Below, piece after piece: positions 36,851 through 51,200 of a DNA stretch of 52,257 nucleotides. Position 1 is the first letter of the stretch; the number at the start of each line of letters is the position of its first letter. The stretch is from Dinochytrium kinnereticum (lineage: Eukaryota; Chytridiomycota; Chytridiomycetes; Chytridiales; Chytridiaceae). The stretch covers positions 1-52,257 of the forward strand of contig JADGJT010000091.1 of the NCBI GenBank assembly GCA_027604005.1. The letters are read 5' to 3'. Below the pieces are notes generated by a model. It was not told where the DNA came from, did not search any database, and worked only from the letters and a program-made list of their open reading frames with translations. The translations under genes and the position numbers were made by a program.

Positions 36851-39800
36851 CTAAGCAGGCATAAAAGACTTTGAAGAATCACCAAGGCGAACCCAAGCGC
36901 CGGCTGACGGGATTCCATCCATCAAGGCAAAGAGCATATACTTCCCTGGTGGGGCAACGCCAGCGGTTGGGGGAGCCATTACGCCAACAGATCCATCCAT
37001 CACCGAGGCTTTAGAAGACAGCCAGACCATTCGCTGCCCAGAGTTCTGCCCGGACAAAGATGAAGCAACTCCAGTGTGAACAAGAGAGAATTCGAGCTTG
37101 GGGCCACTGTCGTTGCCACTAAGCATGACAGATCGCAAATCCGCAGCTCGTGTTGATGGCATTCGAGACGTTGGGATAGAGTGGCTCCAACCTTTTGGCA
37201 TCGAGATTCGAACATGAATCTCCTGCCCATACGTCCAATCTTTCGAGTCCAAACTTTCAATATTCGGTCTGGGCTTTCCCGATGTGAGGTAATGGGGCGA
37301 AAAGTATCCGACAGAGGTTTTCTGACTCTGAGTTATATTGGAATCCAGACCCGTTCCAAGAATCATGACCCTTGCATCCGGCAATAGGACTGCACCAGCC
37401 GCATCAAAATCTCTCATAGTATCTAGATGAGGAATCCCTGCCGGATGCCAGGTACCTGATTGAATAGACTTGAATGCCCCAGTATTCGGTAAGAACACCT
37501 CCATGCCTGCACTCCCGATGTACTGCGGTGAAAGGCCTCCAACAGCAAGCACGCTTCCATCTGGAAGCTGAACCGTCGAGCCAAGGGATCTAGGTGCGCT
37601 CATCGAGGTGCTAACTTCCGGATGGACCTCTATCGAAGTCGAAGAATCCTCTAGCAATAGCTTAGAGGCAAACGTACAACTAGATGATGCACTCGCGCTT
37701 TCATTAGGGCTAGTGGCGATTATCTCGCTTCCCCCGCAAACCATTACTACAGGGTTGTAGTTGTCTGAAGGAGAGAGGGGAAGCATAGTCCCAAAGGATC
37801 CATAATGAGTGGTCAATCCTGAAGTAAAGGCACGGTGTGTTGGACTTTGAATCGATGCCGAATTGGGTGGCAGTTTTAAACCTGTTTTGCCGATTCCGCC
37901 CAATACTCCAGTCGAGCCTTGTGCGTCACTGTTGCCAATATATATCTCTCCCGATGGCAAAATGAAGACCAGAGGTGGTGGAATATGATGAGTAGCCACA
38001 ACGACTGTCGAGTGGGTGATATTCTCGGCTTCCAACTGCCGTCTTAATGGGATATTTCGGCCTGCACTGTGATTCACAGTGTCACGCTGCACAACTGGCC
38101 GGGGCACGGTCTCCATCCAACCAGAGGCGAAAGTTCTCTCCATGCTTGAGTTATCCCCCAGACCACCGACAAACAGCAGGTAGCCATCAAGTAGAGGAAC
38201 GGCTGCAGGATGCTCTCGGGGTATCTAGAAAAGAAGAAGACATCGAATGTCATTAGTCAAAAAGCAATATGGGTGGGTGAAACCGTACCCTTAGAGCCAT
38301 AGGGGATCTCTGAGAATCAAAATGCTTCCATTCAAGATCTGAGATGTGACCAGTAGAATTCACAGATCTTCCGATGACGCTTGGCGCAGCGCCTTGTAAA
38401 TATAAACTCCCATCCGACATAGTAACACCTTAACCAAAAGGGAGAAGGGAAACCAGAATATTAGTCTTCACACCCATAATACGAAATCAAGAAAGAATCT
38501 TGCATACCAGCCCCAAAATATGATCTATGATCAACATCAAACTTTCTTAATGAGCCTGACTTAAAGTCGTACTCCATACTCTCGGTAAGCGCTATAAATT
38601 CAGCCTCAGTCCCATTAGGCATGTAAGCAGACTGAACCATAACCACTGCATTTGTATCCGGAATAGCCGAGATCATCCTCAACGTTGGTTTAAATGCTCC
38701 ACCCACAACCGCGGAAGATGAAGCTTCGGCAAAGGGGATAGTACGGTTAACCTCAAACGATCCAGTGTTAATGCCGTCCACAAAAGCAATCCTACGACCA
38801 TAGGGGCCTTCAGAACTGTACGAAGGCGGAAAGACAACCAAAACGGGATTGTTGGTCGTCCCCGAATTTCCATCTCCATGGGAGCTAGGCTCTTCTGCGG
38901 TACTATTAATGCCCCCAAAACGAGGATTACTGTCATGAGATTTCCCAAAGTTCAATAGAAGAAACGCGATTGCAACAATAACGCCTATAAGGATCAGCGC
39001 TGCAATGATACCAAGCCAAACGTAAAGCCTCTTCCGGCGGTCCACTCCTTCCAGTCGCGTCTTCAACCCCTCGTCAGAGCACAGGTTAAGGCCGAGATCT
39101 TCCTTTTGTGGGCCGTCGAATGCAGGCCTTGCTGAAGTCTCCCTGCTCTTGCTGGAGAATACGCTCCTGCACTTCTGTTTCAAGGTATTGGAGCGACGAG
39201 GTGTAGATGGACTGGTCGGTGGAGTTACGAAAAAGCTTGATGCGGATTTCTTTCTATGAATCGAACCAGACTTCAAGGTTTCAGATTTGGCTCTACTGTG
39301 ACTTTTGGAGATAACCGGTGAATTGGAAAGATCGCCGGCAACTGCAAGCCGTAAAGACTGCGATGGCACAGGGGGACTCTCCGGTTGGAGGTTGGTTTGG
39401 AGTACAGTCCATGATCGATCGCCCACTCGGGTCGGCGCCTGATTAAACATCTTTCCGCTCTCTTGCAGCCACGCCGGCGCTGACGAAACCGAAATCAATG
39501 AGCGCGAAGCCCAGACGGGTCGATCCCGGATACCTTTTTCTGCAGCATTGCGTATAATGCTCTCGGCGACAGATCCTTGAGAGCCGTGTGTTGAGATGCT
39601 TCTGACCTGCGGCAAATCCAGTGTCCGCATTTTCGCAACCTGTGGACCAGGGAACTTGGAAACGTCTGAATCCCCTAATGAAGAACTGCCCCCCTTTGCT
39701 AACTTTGAAGCGAAGGAGGAAGCCCTCTGAATCGGAAAAAGATCCGACTCTTGGCGTGATGTGGCTTCAAGCGGCCCCGTAGCTCCTACGGAACTATCAA

Positions 39801-40848: not shown

Positions 40849-41474
40849 GGTGAGGAGACCTTTGAGAGGGAAAGCCCAAGCTGAATGCCGACTGAAAGGC
40901 AGCGGCTCCCTGAGGCTCGCCCATACGCGTGGCCGTTGAGCACGCAAGGACCGTTGGGTGCTGGCTAGTTCGTGGTGGTCGAAAGGACAAGCATCAGCGT
41001 GTCCCAAAAGGCCCAAATCCGTGACAAACTGTGCCTGTGGCCAGGGCCTGCCGACGACAAGGGCTGGGCTCAAGCCTTGCTTGCGTCGGGGTTTTCCGAC
41101 CTGCCGCCGCATCGTCGCAACAACTCCAGGGTGTGCTTCGCTGCTGCTGCTGCCTGGTGCAGCCAAGGGTGCGGCTGTGGATTCGTCATTGTCCGAAACG
41201 CGAATATTATAGCTCGGCGCCAACCCCACGAGCAAACAAACAACGGCTGACCGAAAGGAGGAAACACGCATGGATTGCCGTGTTGCCGCGGGCAAGCGTG
41301 CCGTCGCGCTCTGCCAGTCAGAGAGAGCAGGAACGTTGGTCGTTCCTGTCTCCCCCACTGCAGCAGCAGCACACTTTGGCTGGCGGACATCAAATCATGC
41401 GGCCCAAAGGTTGACAAGTCCGTTTGCCCACTGTCAAAAAAACGATACGACGCGGAGGGCTGAAGGGCAGCAGC
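40849..41474. other. Divergent promoter region
   Basis: This 626-base region separates the oxidase-like gene (minus) and the F-box gene (plus). It is GC-rich compared with other gaps, and all frames are open for long stretches, so long open frames here mean little. A TATA-like TATAATAT on the minus strand lies at 41204-41211. If that is the promoter of the oxidase-like gene, the 5' leader is over 300 nt and holds an upstream ATG in another frame (near 41185). Confidence 0.5.
41204..41211 (-). promoter_or_regulatory. TATA-like box upstream of the oxidase-like gene
   Basis: TATAATAT on the minus strand within a GC-rich stretch, about 355 bases before the chosen ATG at 40848. It stands out from its surroundings but there is no further support. 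Confidence 0.35.
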
Positions 41475-43247
41475 ATGAAGAGTCCGCTGCCGTTGACGAG
41501 CCCTGCTGGCTGTGCGCAAGAGAAGGACGACGACGGTGTCATGGCCCTATGGTGGAGGCCACTGAGCGCGCCACGACCGCAGGCCGACATGCTTGCCATG
41601 CGTGAGGAGAAGCCGACCCGTGTTCAAGCTGCTAGTCCCGCCACATCTTCACCACACAAGAGGAAGCTCTCGGCTGTTCTTTTGAACATGGCCCATCGCG
41701 GCGCCAACATGTCTCCGGCCTTGCTACCACCCGTGCTATCCTCACCATCAAAGCCTCCCATCAACTCAATTCTCTCACCCCCTTCTCGACGTTGCGAGCA
41801 ACTCCCCACAGAGATTCTCTACATCACCTTTGAGAGCCTAAGCGATCGTCAGGACCTCAGGGCCTGCAGTCTCGTCTGTCGATCTTGGTACCCGATTGCG
41901 CAACGCTGCCAATGGAGAACCATCACAGTCCCAACCCTGACAGCCTTTCACGCCCTTCTTTCCGTCCTGAAAGACAAAAGATACCTCCTACGCTACACCG
42001 TATGCATGCTTCTTCCGTTCTTGGATCATCTCCCCGTTTTTGAGTGCCCAACGACAGAGGCGGCCATTTGGTGGCATGTTGGTAGACTTATAATGGACGC
42101 CCCCCACCTGTCCTTTGTGAGTGGTTTGGAGAAGGCGCCATTGTCTTGTTACGATGTGCTATGCAGGCTGCCCGGCCTGCTTTGCCTGAACTACACGCCG
42201 CAACTACTTCATTCTATGCAGAAGGTCTTAGCGGGCAAAAGGAGTCAGCTTAGAGAGAATTCACTGTTCCCCAAGGTGTTTATGCTCCTTAAAAAAGGAG
42301 ATGACGATCGTGTGTTGGATGCAGTTACGATAGATACCCTGGGGTGTGTTTTACCAAAGTTGGGGGTCTTGGAGATGGCTATTGCTTCGCCTCAGGCTGC
42401 GAGGACCTTTTTTGACGTCGCGTCTCATTCCTGGACCTCCCTTTTCATGCTCACCCTTGAGATCAAGTCCCTCACCCATGTCCCAGCTTTTACAAGCGAT
42501 GGTGTCCTGCCTTCACTTAGAACCCTTAATCTCGTCGTTTTGGATGACAACGACGATAATGACGACACTCTTCTGTCCAGACTCCTCCCACGTTTCCCGA
42601 ACCTGCGAACTTTTGGCGTCGTCTCTGAATCTGGAATTACATCCAACACCTTCCACTTTCTGGCCAAATACTGCCCCCATATTTGCGAGCTTGCTGGAGC
42701 ACTCTCCCCCACATTTTCTATTGTGGATGCTGAAAAGTCTTTTCCAATGCTTAGGCATCTTCATTCTCTTGTGATGGAGATGACGGCCTCCACCGCTGAA
42801 CTGATGGCCAGCATCAATATTACTTCATGGTTTGGCCGTTTGCGCGCATTTCATATGCACCTACCACAGACTTTCGACGATTCGCCATCACACTCACCTA
42901 TGCTGGATCACCTTCTACACATTCTGTCCCAACTTAAAGCTGTGGAGAGGCTGCATATAATTCCAGGTCTTTCTGACTCTGACGCTGATGAAGTATCATG
43001 GCCGCCTGGGATTTTATCGGATGTAAGAACTTTCTGCCCAAATCTCCGTGAGCTAGGTCTCGTGGATGGGATTTGGCCGGCCTCAAGGCTTTTTGAGGTG
43101 AAGTCTTTCATTTCATTGCCCCCAAAGCATTTCAGCCTGTTGTCGTTTCGGCTCTGTCCTGAGATGGAGCGGAGAGATATTGAAATTCACAGACTGAAGT
43201 TGCTCGGGGAAGCAGAGGGTGTCATCCTTGTCGACTTAGTGGATTAG
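41475..43247 (+). CDS. F-box protein with leucine-rich-like C-terminal region, intronless
   Basis: A single open frame of 590 residues starting at MKSPLPLTSPAG. After a disordered Pro/Ser-rich stretch, residues about 107-150 form an F-box: EQLPTEILYITFESLSDR, LRACSLVCRSWYPIAQRCQW. The rest shows irregular leucine-rich segments (LPSLRTLNLVVLDD, FPNLRTFGVVSESG, CPNLRELGLVDG), as in fungal F-box/LRR-like proteins. The F-box should bind Skp1 in an SCF ubiquitin ligase, and the C-terminal part should bind the target, which is unknown. It is the longest gene here without an intron, unlike its many-exon neighbours. The frame is open upstream to 41424 but without an ATG. Confidence 0.8.
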   Translation: MKSPLPLTSPAGCAQEKDDDGVMALWWRPLSAPRPQADMLAMREEKPTRVQAASPATSSPHKRKLSAVLLNMAHRGANMSPALLPPVLSSPSKPPINSILSPPSRRCEQLPTEILYITFESLSDRQDLRACSLVCRSWYPIAQRCQWRTITVPTLTAFHALLSVLKDKRYLLRYTVCMLLPFLDHLPVFECPTTEAAIWWHVGRLIMDAPHLSFVSGLEKAPLSCYDVLCRLPGLLCLNYTPQLLHSMQKVLAGKRSQLRENSLFPKVFMLLKKGDDDRVLDAVTIDTLGCVLPKLGVLEMAIASPQAARTFFDVASHSWTSLFMLTLEIKSLTHVPAFTSDGVLPSLRTLNLVVLDDNDDNDDTLLSRLLPRFPNLRTFGVVSESGITSNTFHFLAKYCPHICELAGALSPTFSIVDAEKSFPMLRHLHSLVMEMTASTAELMASINITSWFGRLRAFHMHLPQTFDDSPSHSPMLDHLLHILSQLKAVERLHIIPGLSDSDADEVSWPPGILSDVRTFCPNLRELGLVDGIWPASRLFEVKSFISLPPKHFSLLSFRLCPEMERRDIEIHRLKLLGEAEGVILVDLVD

Positions 43248-44039: not shown

Positions 44040-47000
44040 TCAAGTCGATGTGATAAGAGAGTCTAGATTCATGGAATTGTCTAAAGCATCAATTCCCGGG
44101 TAGAGACTACCCACCCCATCCAGACGTTCGACGTCGACGGCACTTTGACCAACGCCTGAGATCATCTTAAAACCAACCAATGGCTGATTAGTGGCGGTGG
44201 TCTCCGTCAACTTGCCCTTGACCACAGCGTTAAAGTGTTCCCCCCATTCATTTGGATCAGCGCAGTTGCAAAACACATCGCCGTAAGCTTTGAACTCCTT
44301 AAGATAGGGTACTGCCTTCTTTGCCGCGTCCTTCTGGGCCGCGTTTACTGAGGTTCCCACGCCGACGCCAATGATAATGTCATGCTTAGTAGCGATGCAT
44401 GTGTCCCTGGCCCTGCCTAACGAGCATGAATAACTGAGCGAAGATGCAGACTTAGTGGTTTTTCGCAGTGCCCTCTTGTACAAGGGATAAGATAAAAAAG
44501 ACTGAGTATTCCATACCTAAAATTAACTTCCTTACAAGACAATACATTCGTAATGCCTTTCATCTCGCCCAAATAGCCATTAGGTGGTTCGGCAGGAGCT
44601 GGGTTATCAATATACTCCTCAATCACAAACCACCAAGGATCAATCAAAACCTTATTAATGACACCTTCAACAGCCTCTATGCAGCAACGTGAGTCAAGAA
44701 AAATCGCACCCAAAATAGCCTCAAAACAATCACAGACTATTTTAGGCGCCTTCTTTACCAATGACGAAGAATCCTTGAAATACATTTCAAGCCCCAGGAT
44801 ACGCTTAAGCTCATCCATCTCAGTATTGTCTCTTGTTGACACTGCAGTGGTAGGACGAGCGTACGGGTGGCCAAAATCACGACGTTGCAACTGCCGATTA
44901 TAGTGTTTGCGCCGTCTAGAACCTTGAAGGTAACGAACTGTCTCATAGAGACAATTGCAACCCTCCATGAAAAACGGAAAACTGTTCTCGCAGATCAGTT
45001 GTGTGTGGAAGCCTATAGAGCATGCAGCAACCCCGAGGAATTGATTGGAGCACAGTTTTTGCCTTAAGTGAGCCATGGATTTAGTCGACATATTTTTCTT
45101 GTCAAACACAACTGCTAAAGCATATTCAAGAACAGCATCACCTTTCGAAATAAATGGTAAACAACAGCAGTGAAGACATTCGGGAGAAAGAAAAAAAAGT
45201 AAAGGAAGAAAAAAACAACAAAAAAAAAAACACACGAGGGGGGCAAGATATGCTCACCGAAGAACTCTAGTCGTTGATATTGTGGTCCGCTAGACCCACA
45301 AGAATGCGTTGTTGCCTCAAGTAGTAGGTAAGGATCCTTGAACTCGTACCCCAACATTTCCGCAATCGCCTTAACTCGATCAAAGCGTTTCGCCTCAACA
45401 CGAGTACCTTTGAATACGTGTTTCAAAGCCTCTCGGGGCTGACCACGGAGCATATCCAAGTACTTGCTCCAATCAGCATTTAAACCTTCCCATGCAAGAA
45501 GTCTTTCTGCCGCCGCCGCTGCACCTATTAATCCACTATGAATGAAGCACGCCCCAAAAATCATCGAAACTAATTGCGTGCTCATGGGAAGTTGAACTTT
45601 AAACATGAATGACTCCCATGTAGGTGGAAGCCAAGTCTCTTGAGAAACGACCTGCCCTCCCAACGCCGTGCTAAGTTGGCCCATAACCTCTTGCCGAAAA
45701 AAGTGGGACGGACTCATCAGCTTATTTCGTCCTGCCGTCAAAACCCCCTCATCCTTCAATGGGTAAGTGCAGTATAAATGCAGTCCGGAAACAAGCTTCC
45801 CAAAGCATAATCCGAGAAAGGTGGCGCGCTCTCGATCAATGGAAGAATGCTCCGCTAGAGTGGAGGTTAAATTGAGCATGTGATTTAGAGATAAACACGA
45901 CTCCAGTCGAAACGTGGTCCAAAAATCATGAACGATAATGGAGTGATGAATCGCCCGAATTATCAACGGAAGGTACAGGGCAGAACGTATCAATAGAGTG
46001 GATGGGATTCGCACTGCCTTGCAGAACTGCGGGATTAGGTAGATGAAGGAACCCGCCATTGAATTTTGAGATGTCGCAGATTGGTAAATATTTGGAATAG
46101 GAATGGCTGACAAAAGCGGCTGATCTCTCAAAATCGTGCAGGAGGAGGAATTCGAACGGCTTTTAAAAAACTCTTCAACACTCGGGTGCCCAAAAAAAGG
46201 TGTGGAGTGAGGTCTCCTATCACGTTCGACGCTGAAAACCCTGAAAAAGTCTCCGCATAGGCTGTTCACTACGAGCTCATCACCGAACAATTCAAACAAT
46301 AGCACCGGGTCGTTCACGTTTGTCACATCCTGAACATCCATAACAGAATCCCAGTCAATCACTTTGCTAAAAGGCTCTCCGTTCTGCATGGCCACGAGCG
46401 CCTCCTCTCCACTACTCAATAACGGAACAGGAAGGTAAACAGCGTTGTCCACCGAAAGGCTATAGGGTCTCTTCAAAATAGTAGACCAAAGGGTAGCTCC
46501 ATACTTCATCAAATCATCTATCCTACCCGAAAGCTCCACAGGCCGACAACTGAAGTGCATTCGCAAAGTTGTCACCTCATGATTCAGCATAAACCTGCAA
46601 GCATCCGCAAGACAATCGGGTGGTTTTCCAGGGACGATAAGGCCAATGTCCAGAACACGATTGACATTATGCTCGTCATCGAATTGCAACAAGATCAACC
46701 ATCCTTTTTCTCCGTCCCATCGATCTTGAAACGCAGATGGAATCTTCTGGCCCTCTTCAACGAATTGAAATTTCCCAGGTGGGCGCTGGGATGGTAGATG
46801 TAACATTGCTTTCAGGTTTCCCGAGTCATCGATCCGACATACTATCAATCTAGTGGGTGCTACGGAGCGGCTTAACCCCCTTTACATGCTATTAGTGAGA
46901 ATAAAGACAGGATGGCCCACGTATTTTGAAGCTTTAAACGCGGCACCGTATTGCATGCAAAAATCTTTGGACGCTCTTCAACAGCACAATTTTCAAAATG

Positions 47001-47686
47001 GATATCCCACATTTCATTCATGCTGTCTTTCATCGCTCGCTGAAAGCAATCGTCCAGGAAAAGCAGGCTGACCTAAAAAAGACCTTAGAAAAATACCACA
47101 ATCCACACCCAACATACATCGCACATTTTGATAAGCTTCCCTCTTAGTAGTATGTTGAACATAAATGGTGTCGTCACTAGGCAGTCTGACGAGAAGGAAT
47201 CACTTTCACGCAGGCATCGTTCCGCGGTCAAGTCCGAAAATTTCTCAACGGCTTGTAGGGCCAGACTGGCCCGATCTTCATTACTAGAGACGATAACCGA
47301 CACTTTCCTCTGCACATCATAAGTACGGTTAATAAATTACAACAAAGAAAACAGGAACAGAAAGAGAAAACACCACTGGCACACCCACCTTATTTTTCTC
47401 AACATCGGCCTCTCTCAAGTGCTTCATCAGCAGAACAGCCACCTCCAGGGATACTTCCGGAGAAGACCGAGACAGTACAGTCTCCACCTACCCATGAATC
47501 GTATGGTGAGTCTCATCTTTCAATCTTCAGCAGCTAACGGGCTACCTTTGCCATTTCAAACATTTGGTCACGGTACCCCGTCAAGTCGACCGAACCAGGC
47601 GATAACCATTGCTGACCTGCATCATGATTAGCTTGCGGTCTTGACTGAAGCGAGGGGTTGAATGGCTCACATCTTGCACCGTTCAT
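44040..47686 (-). CDS. Dicer-like protein with dead helicase and RNase IIIa, intact RNase IIIb and dsRBD
   Basis: Eight exons: complement(join(44040..44472,44517..45141,45258..46841,46886..47072,47118..47309,47389..47487,47546..47616,47671..47686)), 1068 residues, shorter than usual Dicers. Helicase N-lobe traces: LTGYRDQMFEMAK (Q motif), VETVLSRSSPEVSLEVAVLL where Walker A should be, VSVIVSSNEDRA, CLVTTPFMFNILLRGKLIKM, LLFLDDCFQ for the DECH box, RPKIFACNTVP for GLTASP. Helicase C and the dimerisation domain are missing. Platform/PAZ-like: YLPVPLL, ELFGDELVVNS, ILRDQPLLSAIP, LIPQF. RNase IIIa (about 510-640): ERATFLGLCFGK, acids replaced (Thr529, Leu533, Gln611, Ser614). RNase IIIb: QRLEFFGDAVLEY and APKIVCDCFEAILGA keep Glu714, Asp718, Asp854, Glu857. 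dsRBD: VGTSVNAAQKDAAKKA. The junction 46841/46886 is uncertain, and the first intron (47617-47670) could be retained in frame. Confidence 0.85.
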
Positions 47687-48278: not shown

Positions 48279-51200
48279 TCAAAGCCCTGAATAGTACGCC
48301 CCTAGCCCAGCCGGATCCCCCCCAACCTGGACCCACTTCCCTTCTCCCACAACCCCATCCATCACCACAAAAAGCAAGTACCACCCAGGCGGCGCAATAG
48401 CAGCACTAGGCGGAGCGCCAACCACAACCTCCCCATTCTCCCCAACACTCCCACTCACCAGCCAAACCAATCTCTGTCCAAACGAGGTGGAATGAGTCCT
48501 GAACCCAGTTTGAACCAGATTGAATCGAATGGTTCGTTGCCTCCCTTCGGCAGGGGACATCAATCGAATGCCTTTCGTTGTCGATGCCGAGGAGTCGGCG
48601 GTGCCGATTCGAACGCTGTAGGTGGTGTTGTAGATCCAGGGTTTGCCGTATTGCCACGCCATCTCGGCGATGATCGGTCGTGGGCGGGATGCGTTGCGGT
48701 TGAGGAGGTACGGCGGGTGGAAGTACTCGATCCTGTATTCATTTTCATAGAGTCTAGACCAGGAGGGGTCGGTCGGGGAATTTGGAGAAGATCCAGCGAC
48801 CATGACCCTCCCATCAGGCAATAACATGGCAGAGGAGTGATACATCCGTGGGATGGTCGACGAGTTTAACACGGACCATCGAGAACCAACTGGTGCCAAC
48901 GGGTTGTAAAGGTGCGCCGCGAGGTTAGGATTCCTACCGAGATCCCATCCAGCCATCCCCCTCTGAGCGCCATTGAGAAGCAGCAGCGTCCCATCCGGAA
49001 GATGAATCAGGTCTCCGAGGACCCTAGGGGACGGCATAACCTCCATGGTCCAGTTGGCGTCAGGCCTCTCGGGGTAGATTAGGCCGCAGGTCGAAAGGGC
49101 GATCGATGCGTTTGATTCGACAGCCTGAAGTCCTTGAGGGTGGACGGCGCCTCCACAGACCATGACACCTGGCTCATAATTGTTTTGCGGGTCAAGAGGA
49201 AGGATGAGGCCAGTACCAGTCCAGGGGTATGATCGGAAAGGCCCACCGGGAAGACGCGGGAACTCGAAGTAAACAGACGTGTCGACCATCTCAATGCGGG
49301 ATGGGGACTGCAAGGCGTTGTTGCATGCGCTAAAATTAGAAAAGAGTTGATCAATTATTAGCTTTCGCCCCCCCAAAAAAAAAGAAGAAAAAAAAAAAGA
49401 AAAAAAGAAAGGAAAGCACAAAAAAAGAATACAGAGAAACAAAAAAACGTACTCGAGAGTAACCGTCGAAGTTCCAGCAGCATCCCCAACAACATTCACA
49501 CAGCTTCCAGACGCCGCATGTCGAATCTCTCCAGACCCAACATCAAATATCTGATCTGAGTCCTCCGCAACACACCTCCTGAACCCAAGCACAGCCCCAA
49601 CCCTCGCAGAATCAGCAACCGTCAAGCACATCCTAGACAAAGTATGCACCACCCATCCAGCACCAGGGTAAGTGTCTCTCAAGATTGGAGCCCCAACAGT
49701 CGCGTCAAAGTTTGTAGGCGACACCTTGGGGCTTCCAAAGAAGGCAAACGATTGCGGATGGTCAGCGGTACGGTTCTGGTTGAAGTCAGAAGCCGATGCG
49801 CAGAGTCTTGTCCCTAAAATTCCAACGATATTTGATCCTGGAGTTACAGCTGTGGCGGTCAAATTAAGCCCAGAGGTAGGAGGTTGGAGGCAGAAACCCC
49901 CGACTCCCGGAGAAGAGCCACTAGGTCGTGCAGAAGCGGAGATGACAGTAGGACGAAGGAAAAAGGTTTTGAGAGCGTTATACCCAAGAGAGGGATCGAG
50001 GATTATCGCGCGGTCGCTTGCGGTAACAAAGATGCGACCAGAAGGAAGCAAGGCGGTGGTCGGATAAAGGTTGGCGGGAAGGGTATCCCAGAGGAATTGG
50101 AGGGGAATCAAAGCGTCATTCGGATTTGAGAACTCCCTTGGTGGGGGGATAATCTCCATAGTGCCCGTGTTGTTCGGGGGGGAAGTGAATGCAACGGCGA
50201 CGATGGTGCCACCAATAATGAGCATTCGACCTTCCGGGAGCATCACCACGCTGGGGTACCATCTCTTGGACTGCAATGGAAACAAGTAGTGATTAGACAG
50301 TTAAGAAAAAGGCTGAAAAGTAAGGAGAAGCGAAGAAGAGAGACCAGACGGCAGGAAAGACAAAAAAAGGCTAAACATACCGCAAGACTAATCTTTGAAT
50401 TGCTAGGATCATCAACCCAATCTTGGGATCCAAACTTGCCTGCAGACCCAGAGGGGCTAAGGAGGCGGATCGCCTTCATCCCATCAAGCAAGCCTCCCAT
50501 CTCAGTATAGTTCTCAGCGCCGCCAAGAACCATCATCTTTCCATCTGGCAGGAGCATGCCGCCGCCACAAAAGACATTTGACCTAAGAGTGAGAGGCCTG
50601 AACGAATCGGTGGTGTAATCGTACTCGGTCGACCAAGCAGGAAAGTTGGTACCAGGCCTGGTAGCATTTGTACCAAGGTAATCCCACCGTTGAAGCATGG
50701 CAACTTTGGAGGAACCCTTCATGAGTCCAATATGAATAGCGACGGCACCAGAGTTGCCACCATCTCCCTTTGCCAAACGATACTCGCCAAGGTTCGAGCG
50801 ATCCTGAGGGTCAAAGACGATACGGCTAGCAGAGGGAGAGGAAGGCCGAGGAAGCGACGTAATGGGAAACGTGCCGGGAGAGGAGAGTGCGGGAAGGTGG
50901 GGGAAAGGGTTGGCCTCGGGCGCCTCGCCATCGTCATCAGCAGGCGATCCGCTGCTGTTCTTCCTGATGACCGTAAAGTAGATGGCCAGAACGGTCCCAG
51001 TCAAACACAGCACGGCAACAATGACAACGGCAATGATGGCCCTCCGTCGTCGCTGCTCACTGACCAGCAGCCTGCGCATCGCCGCGGCCTGTTGTTGTTT
51101 AGGGTTTTTGGATGGGGACGTTAGTGAGGAAGGATTAGGTTGACGGTCCAGATGCTGATGGGACAATTAAGCTTTTGCGCGCACGTCACACGCGAATATA

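Follow-up and report, generated by a model that had tools for sequence, protein, structure and literature searches.

Can a Dicer that has lost one of its two RNase III active sites still be held by selection, and if so, what would it cut? The question is raised by a Dicer-like gene on the minus strand of the window, by which we mean the whole 52,257-nucleotide (nt) stretch of DNA that was analyzed (contig JADGJT010000091.1, here C91, of the 22.4-Mb assembly of the chytrid Dinochytrium kinnereticum). A first-pass annotation of this DNA had described the gene as a remodeled Dicer with one live RNase III domain. That description stood, but it was incomplete given that it mentioned neither the dead helicase, nor the lost HEL2 and Dicer dimerization domains, nor the two intact Dicers elsewhere in the genome. 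The gene fails the features of a canonical Dicer that we tested in the helicase, in the dimerization domain, and in the acids of RNase IIIa, and it is still Dicer derived. We consider it to be a retained, sub- or neofunctionalized Dicer paralogue, with an ATP-independent core in which a pseudo-IIIa domain accompanies RNase IIIb and which is predicted to nick one strand, and we place the probability of this reading at about one in two.

All four metal-binding acids of IIIa are replaced (T548, L552, Q630, and S633), and all four of IIIb are present (E733, D737, D873, and E876). The first-pass annotation had read both sites in the same way, with residue numbers that were 19 lower (Thr529, Leu533, Gln611, and Ser614 in IIIa; Glu714, Asp718, Asp854, and Glu857 in IIIb). 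The IIIb domain matched Pfam Ribonuclease_3 with 62.1 bits (cutoff, 27). We compared both sites with those of the present gene's relatives in an alignment of 157 sequences whose sampling is biased, having been built from 120 of 776 matches in one search and 36 in another. It comprised the present gene, the C58 Dicer of the same genome, and 155 database proteins, some of which are not Dicers in the strict sense; the deposited protein P0001 was removed as the same gene. All eight acids were found in 147 of the 157 sequences, all four IIIa acids in 150, and all four IIIb acids in 154. The present gene, with none of the four IIIa acids and all four in IIIb, was the only sequence in this set to have lost the IIIa acids completely. 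Six others deviate in IIIa: P0002, P0058, and P0059 because of gaps in the deposited models, P0034 by a single difference that is absent from a second alignment, P0036 by two differences, and P0033, whose IIIa positions read V/M/D/K. Given that the whole of IIIa lies within a single 1,622-nt exon and aligns nearly gap free to C35, an intact paralogue in the same genome, alternative splicing cannot restore the IIIa acids, and the splice form of that kind for which the first-pass annotation had allowed is ruled out on sequence.

Our gene model, the splice sites of which were taken from the sequence and from comparison with C35, has seven exons rather than the eight counted previously. The open frame and clean splice sites noted earlier were borne out, with 1,062 codons before the stop, no internal stops, and six GT-AG introns of 58, 79, 45, 41, 116, and 119 nt, in order. 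The database entry for the gene is P0001, "Dicer-like protein 2" of D. kinnereticum (Chytridiomycota, Chytridiales; 1,067 amino acids [aa]). It is identical to our model over residues 1 to 879, and the later differences are a matter of splice choice only. P0001 is without GAIFLDSRCCI (33 nt, window 44678-44710), a conserved part of IIIb, and its C terminus is also joined differently; the deposited annotation at these 33 nt is probably wrong.

Outside the RNase III domains, the losses fall in the helicase and the dimerization domain. Compared to C35, the Walker A motif carries the changes G59V, K60S, and T61L, and DECH has become DDCF. The body of HEL2 is missing, the alignment to C35 has a gap at the Dicer dimerization domain (DUF283), and neither Helicase_C nor Dicer_dimer had a Pfam match in the present protein up to an E value of 1. 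The reading frame is preserved through all of these losses. Above the cutoffs, the Pfam matches in the present protein were to RNase III families only; frames of C35 matched Helicase_C, Dicer_dimer, and RNase III, and those of C58 matched DEAD, Dicer_dimer, PAZ, and RNase III. By identity, the platform/PAZ region is the best kept part of the protein, with 42% identity to C35 over residues 206 to 500. The predicted structure model matches the platform-PAZ cassette of human Dicer (4nh5; foldseek, E value of 8.6e-6) and was aligned to DCL3 (VIA-align), and on this model, the platform and PAZ fold is present. The Pfam PAZ profile itself had no match in the present protein, nor in the C35 frames scanned. 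Toward the C terminus, the dsrm family scored 12.7 bits, below its cutoff of 23, and the model shows a dsRBD-like strand-strand-strand-helix arrangement at residues 937 to 987 of P0001. When the model is superposed on the Dicer core, IIIa and IIIb are part of the same chain, and the predicted local distance difference test (pLDDT) score of IIIa is 64 to 94 in ten-residue blocks over residues 511 to 660.

Judged from its sequence, the gene is descended from a Dicer. Its first three introns and the intron within IIIb lie at places that match introns of C35, and since these are held in common, the copy arose from DNA and not from a transcript. Trees were built from chosen rows of the 157 (34 for FastTree, 15 to 18 for the domain trees, and 16 for the rates, or 13 for the helicase). 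With residues 206 to 985, the gene forms a clade with C35, Chytridium lagenaria, and Phlyctochytrium bullatum at a support of 100/100 (Shimodaira-Hasegawa-like approximate likelihood ratio test [SH-aLRT]/bootstrap); the same four-member clade has 98.9/99 on platform/PAZ and 0.999 in FastTree, and Irineochytrium falls outside it. The narrower group of the present gene, C35, and Chytridium is found at 95.4/97 on residues 206 to 985, where the sister is Chytridium at 70.2/85 (0.88 in FastTree). Platform/PAZ alone leaves the sister open (21.6/44), a tree of IIIa alone places the gene beside Phlyctochytrium (58.5/33), and in a tree of the helicase remnant alone, it falls outside the clade, in an unsupported position (12.9/45); taken singly, the helicase, IIIa, and IIIb yield no placement. 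The nearest relative would be C35 or Chytridium, with long-branch attraction a possible influence.

The first-pass annotation had also held that the gene is not a case of simple decay, and the open frame of 1,062 codons and roughly threefold differences in rate between domains agree with that view. Terminal branches were estimated for IIIa, platform/PAZ, and IIIb on a fixed 16-row tree with both candidate sisters, C35 and Chytridium, and for the helicase remnant on a 13-row tree. The terminal branch of the present gene was 4.38 in IIIa (5 to 95% of 60 bootstraps, 2.80 to 7.47) and 2.93 in the helicase remnant (2.04 to 4.48), compared to 1.17 in platform/PAZ (0.91 to 1.43) and 1.34 in IIIb (1.03 to 1.94). 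An earlier run with 40 bootstraps gave agreeing rates, and with Chytridium as sister, the values were 4.02, 1.14, and 1.19 for IIIa, platform/PAZ, and IIIb, respectively. The excess in IIIa extends beyond its active site, given that its branch is still 3.00 (2.10 to 4.38) without the active-site columns; the other-tip medians are 0.47 with these columns and 0.54 without. For IIIb, the branch is 1.34 with and 1.63 without the active-site columns (other-tip medians, 0.52 and 0.64). The ratio of the IIIa to the IIIb branch is 3.27 in the present gene versus 0.51 to 1.93 in the 15 other tips. A similar division was seen at conserved sites, defined as those that are the same in 90% or more of a set of 23 other chytrid Dicers: the present gene has retained 7 of 21 such sites in helicase exon 4 and 17 of 32 in IIIa, compared to 18 of 24 for platform/PAZ and 23 of 31 for IIIb, and C35 retains every one of them. 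Over 995 codons, identity to C35 is 48.6, 57.9, and 34.0% at codon positions 1, 2, and 3, which is the pattern of protein-level constraint, with third positions near saturation. The open frame, the codon-position pattern, and the domain-specific rates therefore disfavor uniform decay. On this sequence evidence, past selection released the helicase and IIIa while it held IIIb, the platform/PAZ cap, and the frame.

The retention of the IIIb residues with the motor and the other blade lost suggests an enzyme that would cut one RNA strand only. We propose that a duplication at the DNA level, for which the shared introns and the tree argue, took place in the lineage of Dinochytrium, Chytridium, and Phlyctochytrium. 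The copy would then have lost helicase function through point changes and frame-keeping deletions, and also the active site of IIIa, with selection continuing on platform/PAZ, the IIIb site, and the frame, as the rates and the sequence show. In the protein, pseudo-IIIa may pair with IIIb in the same chain, as in Dicers, and hold the RNA, and the platform/PAZ-like cap may hold the RNA end and set the distance from it, with cutting carried out by IIIb only, on one strand and without ATP. In animal Dicer, as described in part of PMC12700799, the 3p arm is cut by IIIa and the 5p arm by IIIb, and one dead site leads to a nicked precursor. Because IIIb cuts the 5p arm there, we would expect the product to be a nick at a measured distance from the end, on the strand carrying the 5' end, perhaps completed by C35, C58, or an Argonaute.

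Several points weigh against this view of the gene as a retained one-strand cutter. The parts that were kept have also suffered, with 8 of 31 conserved sites lost in IIIb and 6 of 24 in platform/PAZ, including R405D, and they too are fast, at 1.2 to 1.3 versus other-tip medians of 0.5 to 0.7 (about twice other chytrids). Once a branch length exceeds about 3, it is imprecise and close to saturation. The structure model leans toward a Dicer fold, having been built from an alignment made up mostly of normal Dicers and from P0001, which is without 11 residues of IIIb. The strand assignment is borrowed from animal Dicer, and the gene is known here from sequence alone. Two protein searches (36 and 5 proteins, consisting of the query and of Dicers or RNase III proteins only distantly related to it) found no orthologue, but their word filter also passed over the known relatives P0038 and P0039, and P0037 exceeded the length filter of the first search; hence the absence of an orthologue is not established. 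The loss of several regions, the long branch in every domain, and the undetected orthologue, given how insensitive those searches were, would likewise be expected of a duplicate that is becoming a pseudogene, in which the helicase and IIIa went first and the rest was released from selection so recently that no stop has yet arisen. In simulations of neutral change at 0.03 substitutions per site, a mean of 3.4 stops arose and 4.5% of 200 runs had none, and thus a lack of stops is compatible with up to about that much neutral change. However, few codons change at 0.03 substitutions per site, which makes it very unlikely that the losses of the IIIa acids and of Walker A all fell in a recent neutral period. 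Most losses would instead have fallen while the frame was still held, and uniform decay would not give the threefold rate differences between domains. We regard such a pseudogene as doubtful, though an explanation to be taken seriously.

The remaining explanations accept a working protein or question the gene model. The good preservation of platform/PAZ beside a dead helicase and a dead IIIa could be that of a noncutting RNA-binding regulator or decoy that holds the ends of double-stranded RNA or competes with C35, and for which the IIIb acids would matter little. We consider this unlikely given that the four IIIb acids are all kept and that the IIIb active-site columns were held in the usual proportion while those of IIIa were lost in excess, the latter being a weak argument since the IIIb bootstrap intervals overlap. 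The first-pass annotation had suggested that cutting both strands would require two copies or a partner, as in budding-yeast Dcr1. One complete active site per chain does fit a pairing of the IIIb domains of two chains, but the parallel with the single-domain Dcr1 is weak: in the predicted chain, a IIIa-like domain with 17 of 32 conserved sites and the pLDDT values given above already fills the partner's place, and because both of these domains belong to a single chain of the predicted model, an RNase III pair does not require a second copy. Two-chain cutting is accordingly very unlikely in our estimation. It is hard to credit that the apparent damage to an otherwise normal Dicer comes from a wrong gene model or an assembly error. 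Although the deposited and present models disagree near the second IIIb motif and at the C terminus, a single long exon that offers no splice choice contains both IIIa and the first IIIb motif, the differences are scattered substitutions and not frame errors, and P0001, which comes from a 67,484-base contig and possibly from the same reads, agrees over residues 1 to 879.

If the gene encodes a retained one-strand cutter, a bolder idea, which we put forward tentatively as possible, is that of a natural nicking Dicer, a dedicated paralogue that would have given up its ATP motor and one of its active sites in exchange for strand-selective cutting at a measured distance from an end, and that would work beside two complete Dicers. 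If true, the nicked strand would decide the choice of guide strand or RNA turnover in a fungus with four Argonaute-like genes and in which an RNA-dependent RNA polymerase (RdRP) was not found. With a natural one-site gene kept beside complete Dicers, one could study directly what purpose one-strand cutting serves, whether a IIIa domain can persist purely as a scaffold, and which parts of a Dicer (motor, dimerization domain, and IIIa site) can be lost with IIIb and the measuring cap retained.

Table. Positions of the Dicer-like gene and its parts in the window
Feature	Position	Strand	Size, residues, or basis
Whole Dicer-like gene	44040..47686	-	Open frame, GT-AG introns; identified with deposited P0001
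Exons 1-4	47686-47546, 47487-47389, 47309-47118, 47072-46921	-	141, 99, 192, 152 nt
Exons 5-7	46879-45258, 45141-44536, 44416-44040	-	1622, 606, 377 nt
HEL1 remnant	46921..47587	-	Residues ~34-195, exons 1-4; Walker A degenerate; DDCF instead of DECH
Helicase motif VI remnant and linker	46771..46879	-	Alignment; HEL2 body of C35 and Dicer-dimer domain absent on either side
Platform and PAZ-like region	45964..46770	-	Residues ~232-500; alignment to C35; foldseek
RNase IIIa pseudo-domain	45499..45921	-	Residues ~515-655; alignment; 17/32 highly conserved sites kept (residues 531-655)
T548 replacing IIIa Glu	45820..45822	-	Gene model and alignment
L552 replacing IIIa Asp	45808..45810	-	Gene model and alignment
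Q630 replacing IIIa Asp	45574..45576	-	Gene model and alignment
S633 replacing IIIa Glu	45565..45567	-	Gene model and alignment
RNase IIIb	44633..45366	-	Residues ~700-905; split by 116-nt intron 45257-45142; acids kept
C-terminal dsRBD-like segment	44283..44416	-	Aligns to C-terminal region of C35

A genome search for other silencing genes, which the first-pass annotation had proposed, returned two other Dicers, C35 and C58, each with all eight acids, and four Argonaute-like genes arranged as two neighboring pairs on contigs C285 and C39 (counted from 12 exon matches). C35 carries a 43-nt intron at L008 3713-3755, as seen from its deposited protein P0037. A further match to a single RNase III domain (L009, C22:73696-74037; 28.5 bits) is interrupted by stops that may be intronic. 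The RdRP profile PF05183 had no match in the genome, but its control also matched nowhere. The pattern G-x-D-L/F-D-G-D had no site in the genome, and the 24 sites of the pattern D-Y/F-D-G-D were not RdRP-like by translation, which does not prove that RdRP is absent; 2 of the 24 we take to be RNA polymerase largest subunits. According to PMC9926174, RdRP is missing in several chytrids, all Rhizophydiales, which is not predictive for Dinochytrium. Around the gene, frames resembling galactose/glyoxal oxidases stand on both sides on the minus strand (window 36851-38224, 48279-50300, and 50243-51166), with Pfam matches to GO-like_E_set and Glyoxal_oxid_N, the last frame being below the cutoff for Glyoxal_oxid_N; the frame at 48279-50300 also has a weak ricin-B-lectin-like stretch (21.0 bits; cutoff, 29). 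An F-box protein on the plus strand (window 41415-43247) adjoins the 3' end of the Dicer gene convergently. Repeats in and around the gene were short, A-rich, or two-copy matches, and Rfam had no match in the window.

How does the gene compare to known systems? A survey of 2,911 fungal Dicers sorted them by the domains present (section 2.2 of PMC12663654), and a text search of the main text of that paper did not find "catalytic residue," "inactive," or "Dinochytrium." In a literature search whose coverage mostly excluded subscription papers, we recognized no description of the gene, nor of any natural Dicer paralogue in which IIIa is dead and IIIb live. In build, the gene resembles neither yeast Dcr1 nor R3B2. 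Dcr1 of Kluyveromyces polysporus likewise has one complete RNase III site per chain, but by the partial account in PMC10328071, it consists of a single RNase III domain and a tandem dsRBD, whereas the present gene retains a second, dead domain and a platform/PAZ-like region. R3B2 of Mucor is also a fungal relative of RNase III from RNA silencing, and its catalytic residues are likewise altered, yet as far as the relevant portion of PMC4395119 describes it, R3B2 has one N-terminal RNase III-like domain and two C-terminal dsRBDs, whereas the present protein has two RNase III-like domains, set on the core of a Dicer. The trypanosome editing endonucleases and their KREPB partners similarly bring together a pair of related RNase III proteins, only one of them catalytically competent (PMC9508840, in part), but these are separate proteins in an editing complex and not one Dicer-derived chain. 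P0033, a metagenome protein of 587 aa with a dsRBD, likewise joins its altered IIIa to an intact IIIb (E/D/D/E) and is apparently an independent case of pseudo-IIIa; none of the helicase, PAZ, and Dicer-dimer families of Pfam matched it, and its IIIa region scored 26.3 bits against mL44, just below the cutoff of 27.

Closest in descent is the clade of chytrid Dicer-like protein 1 (C35, deposited as P0037; P0038 of Phlyctochytrium bullatum; and P0039 of Chytridium lagenaria), which shares with the present gene the platform/PAZ-like region, the IIIb acids, the C-terminal part, and, in C35, the intron positions. The members of that clade keep the acids of both RNase III domains, unlike the present gene, and C35 also retains Walker A, DECH, HEL2, and the Dicer-dimer domain. 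In the state of the active sites, the gene resembles human or mouse Dicers with a mutation in the IIIa or IIIb site, which likewise have two folded RNase III domains and one active site. These mutant Dicers are full length, with the helicase present. A Dicer IIIb mutant leaves nicked precursors, as reported in part of PMC12700799. In the literature surveyed, some of it in partial form, Dicers with one dead RNase III site have so far been tumor mutants or laboratory constructs, whereas in Dinochytrium, a distinct gene is fixed in this state, with complete Dicers alongside.
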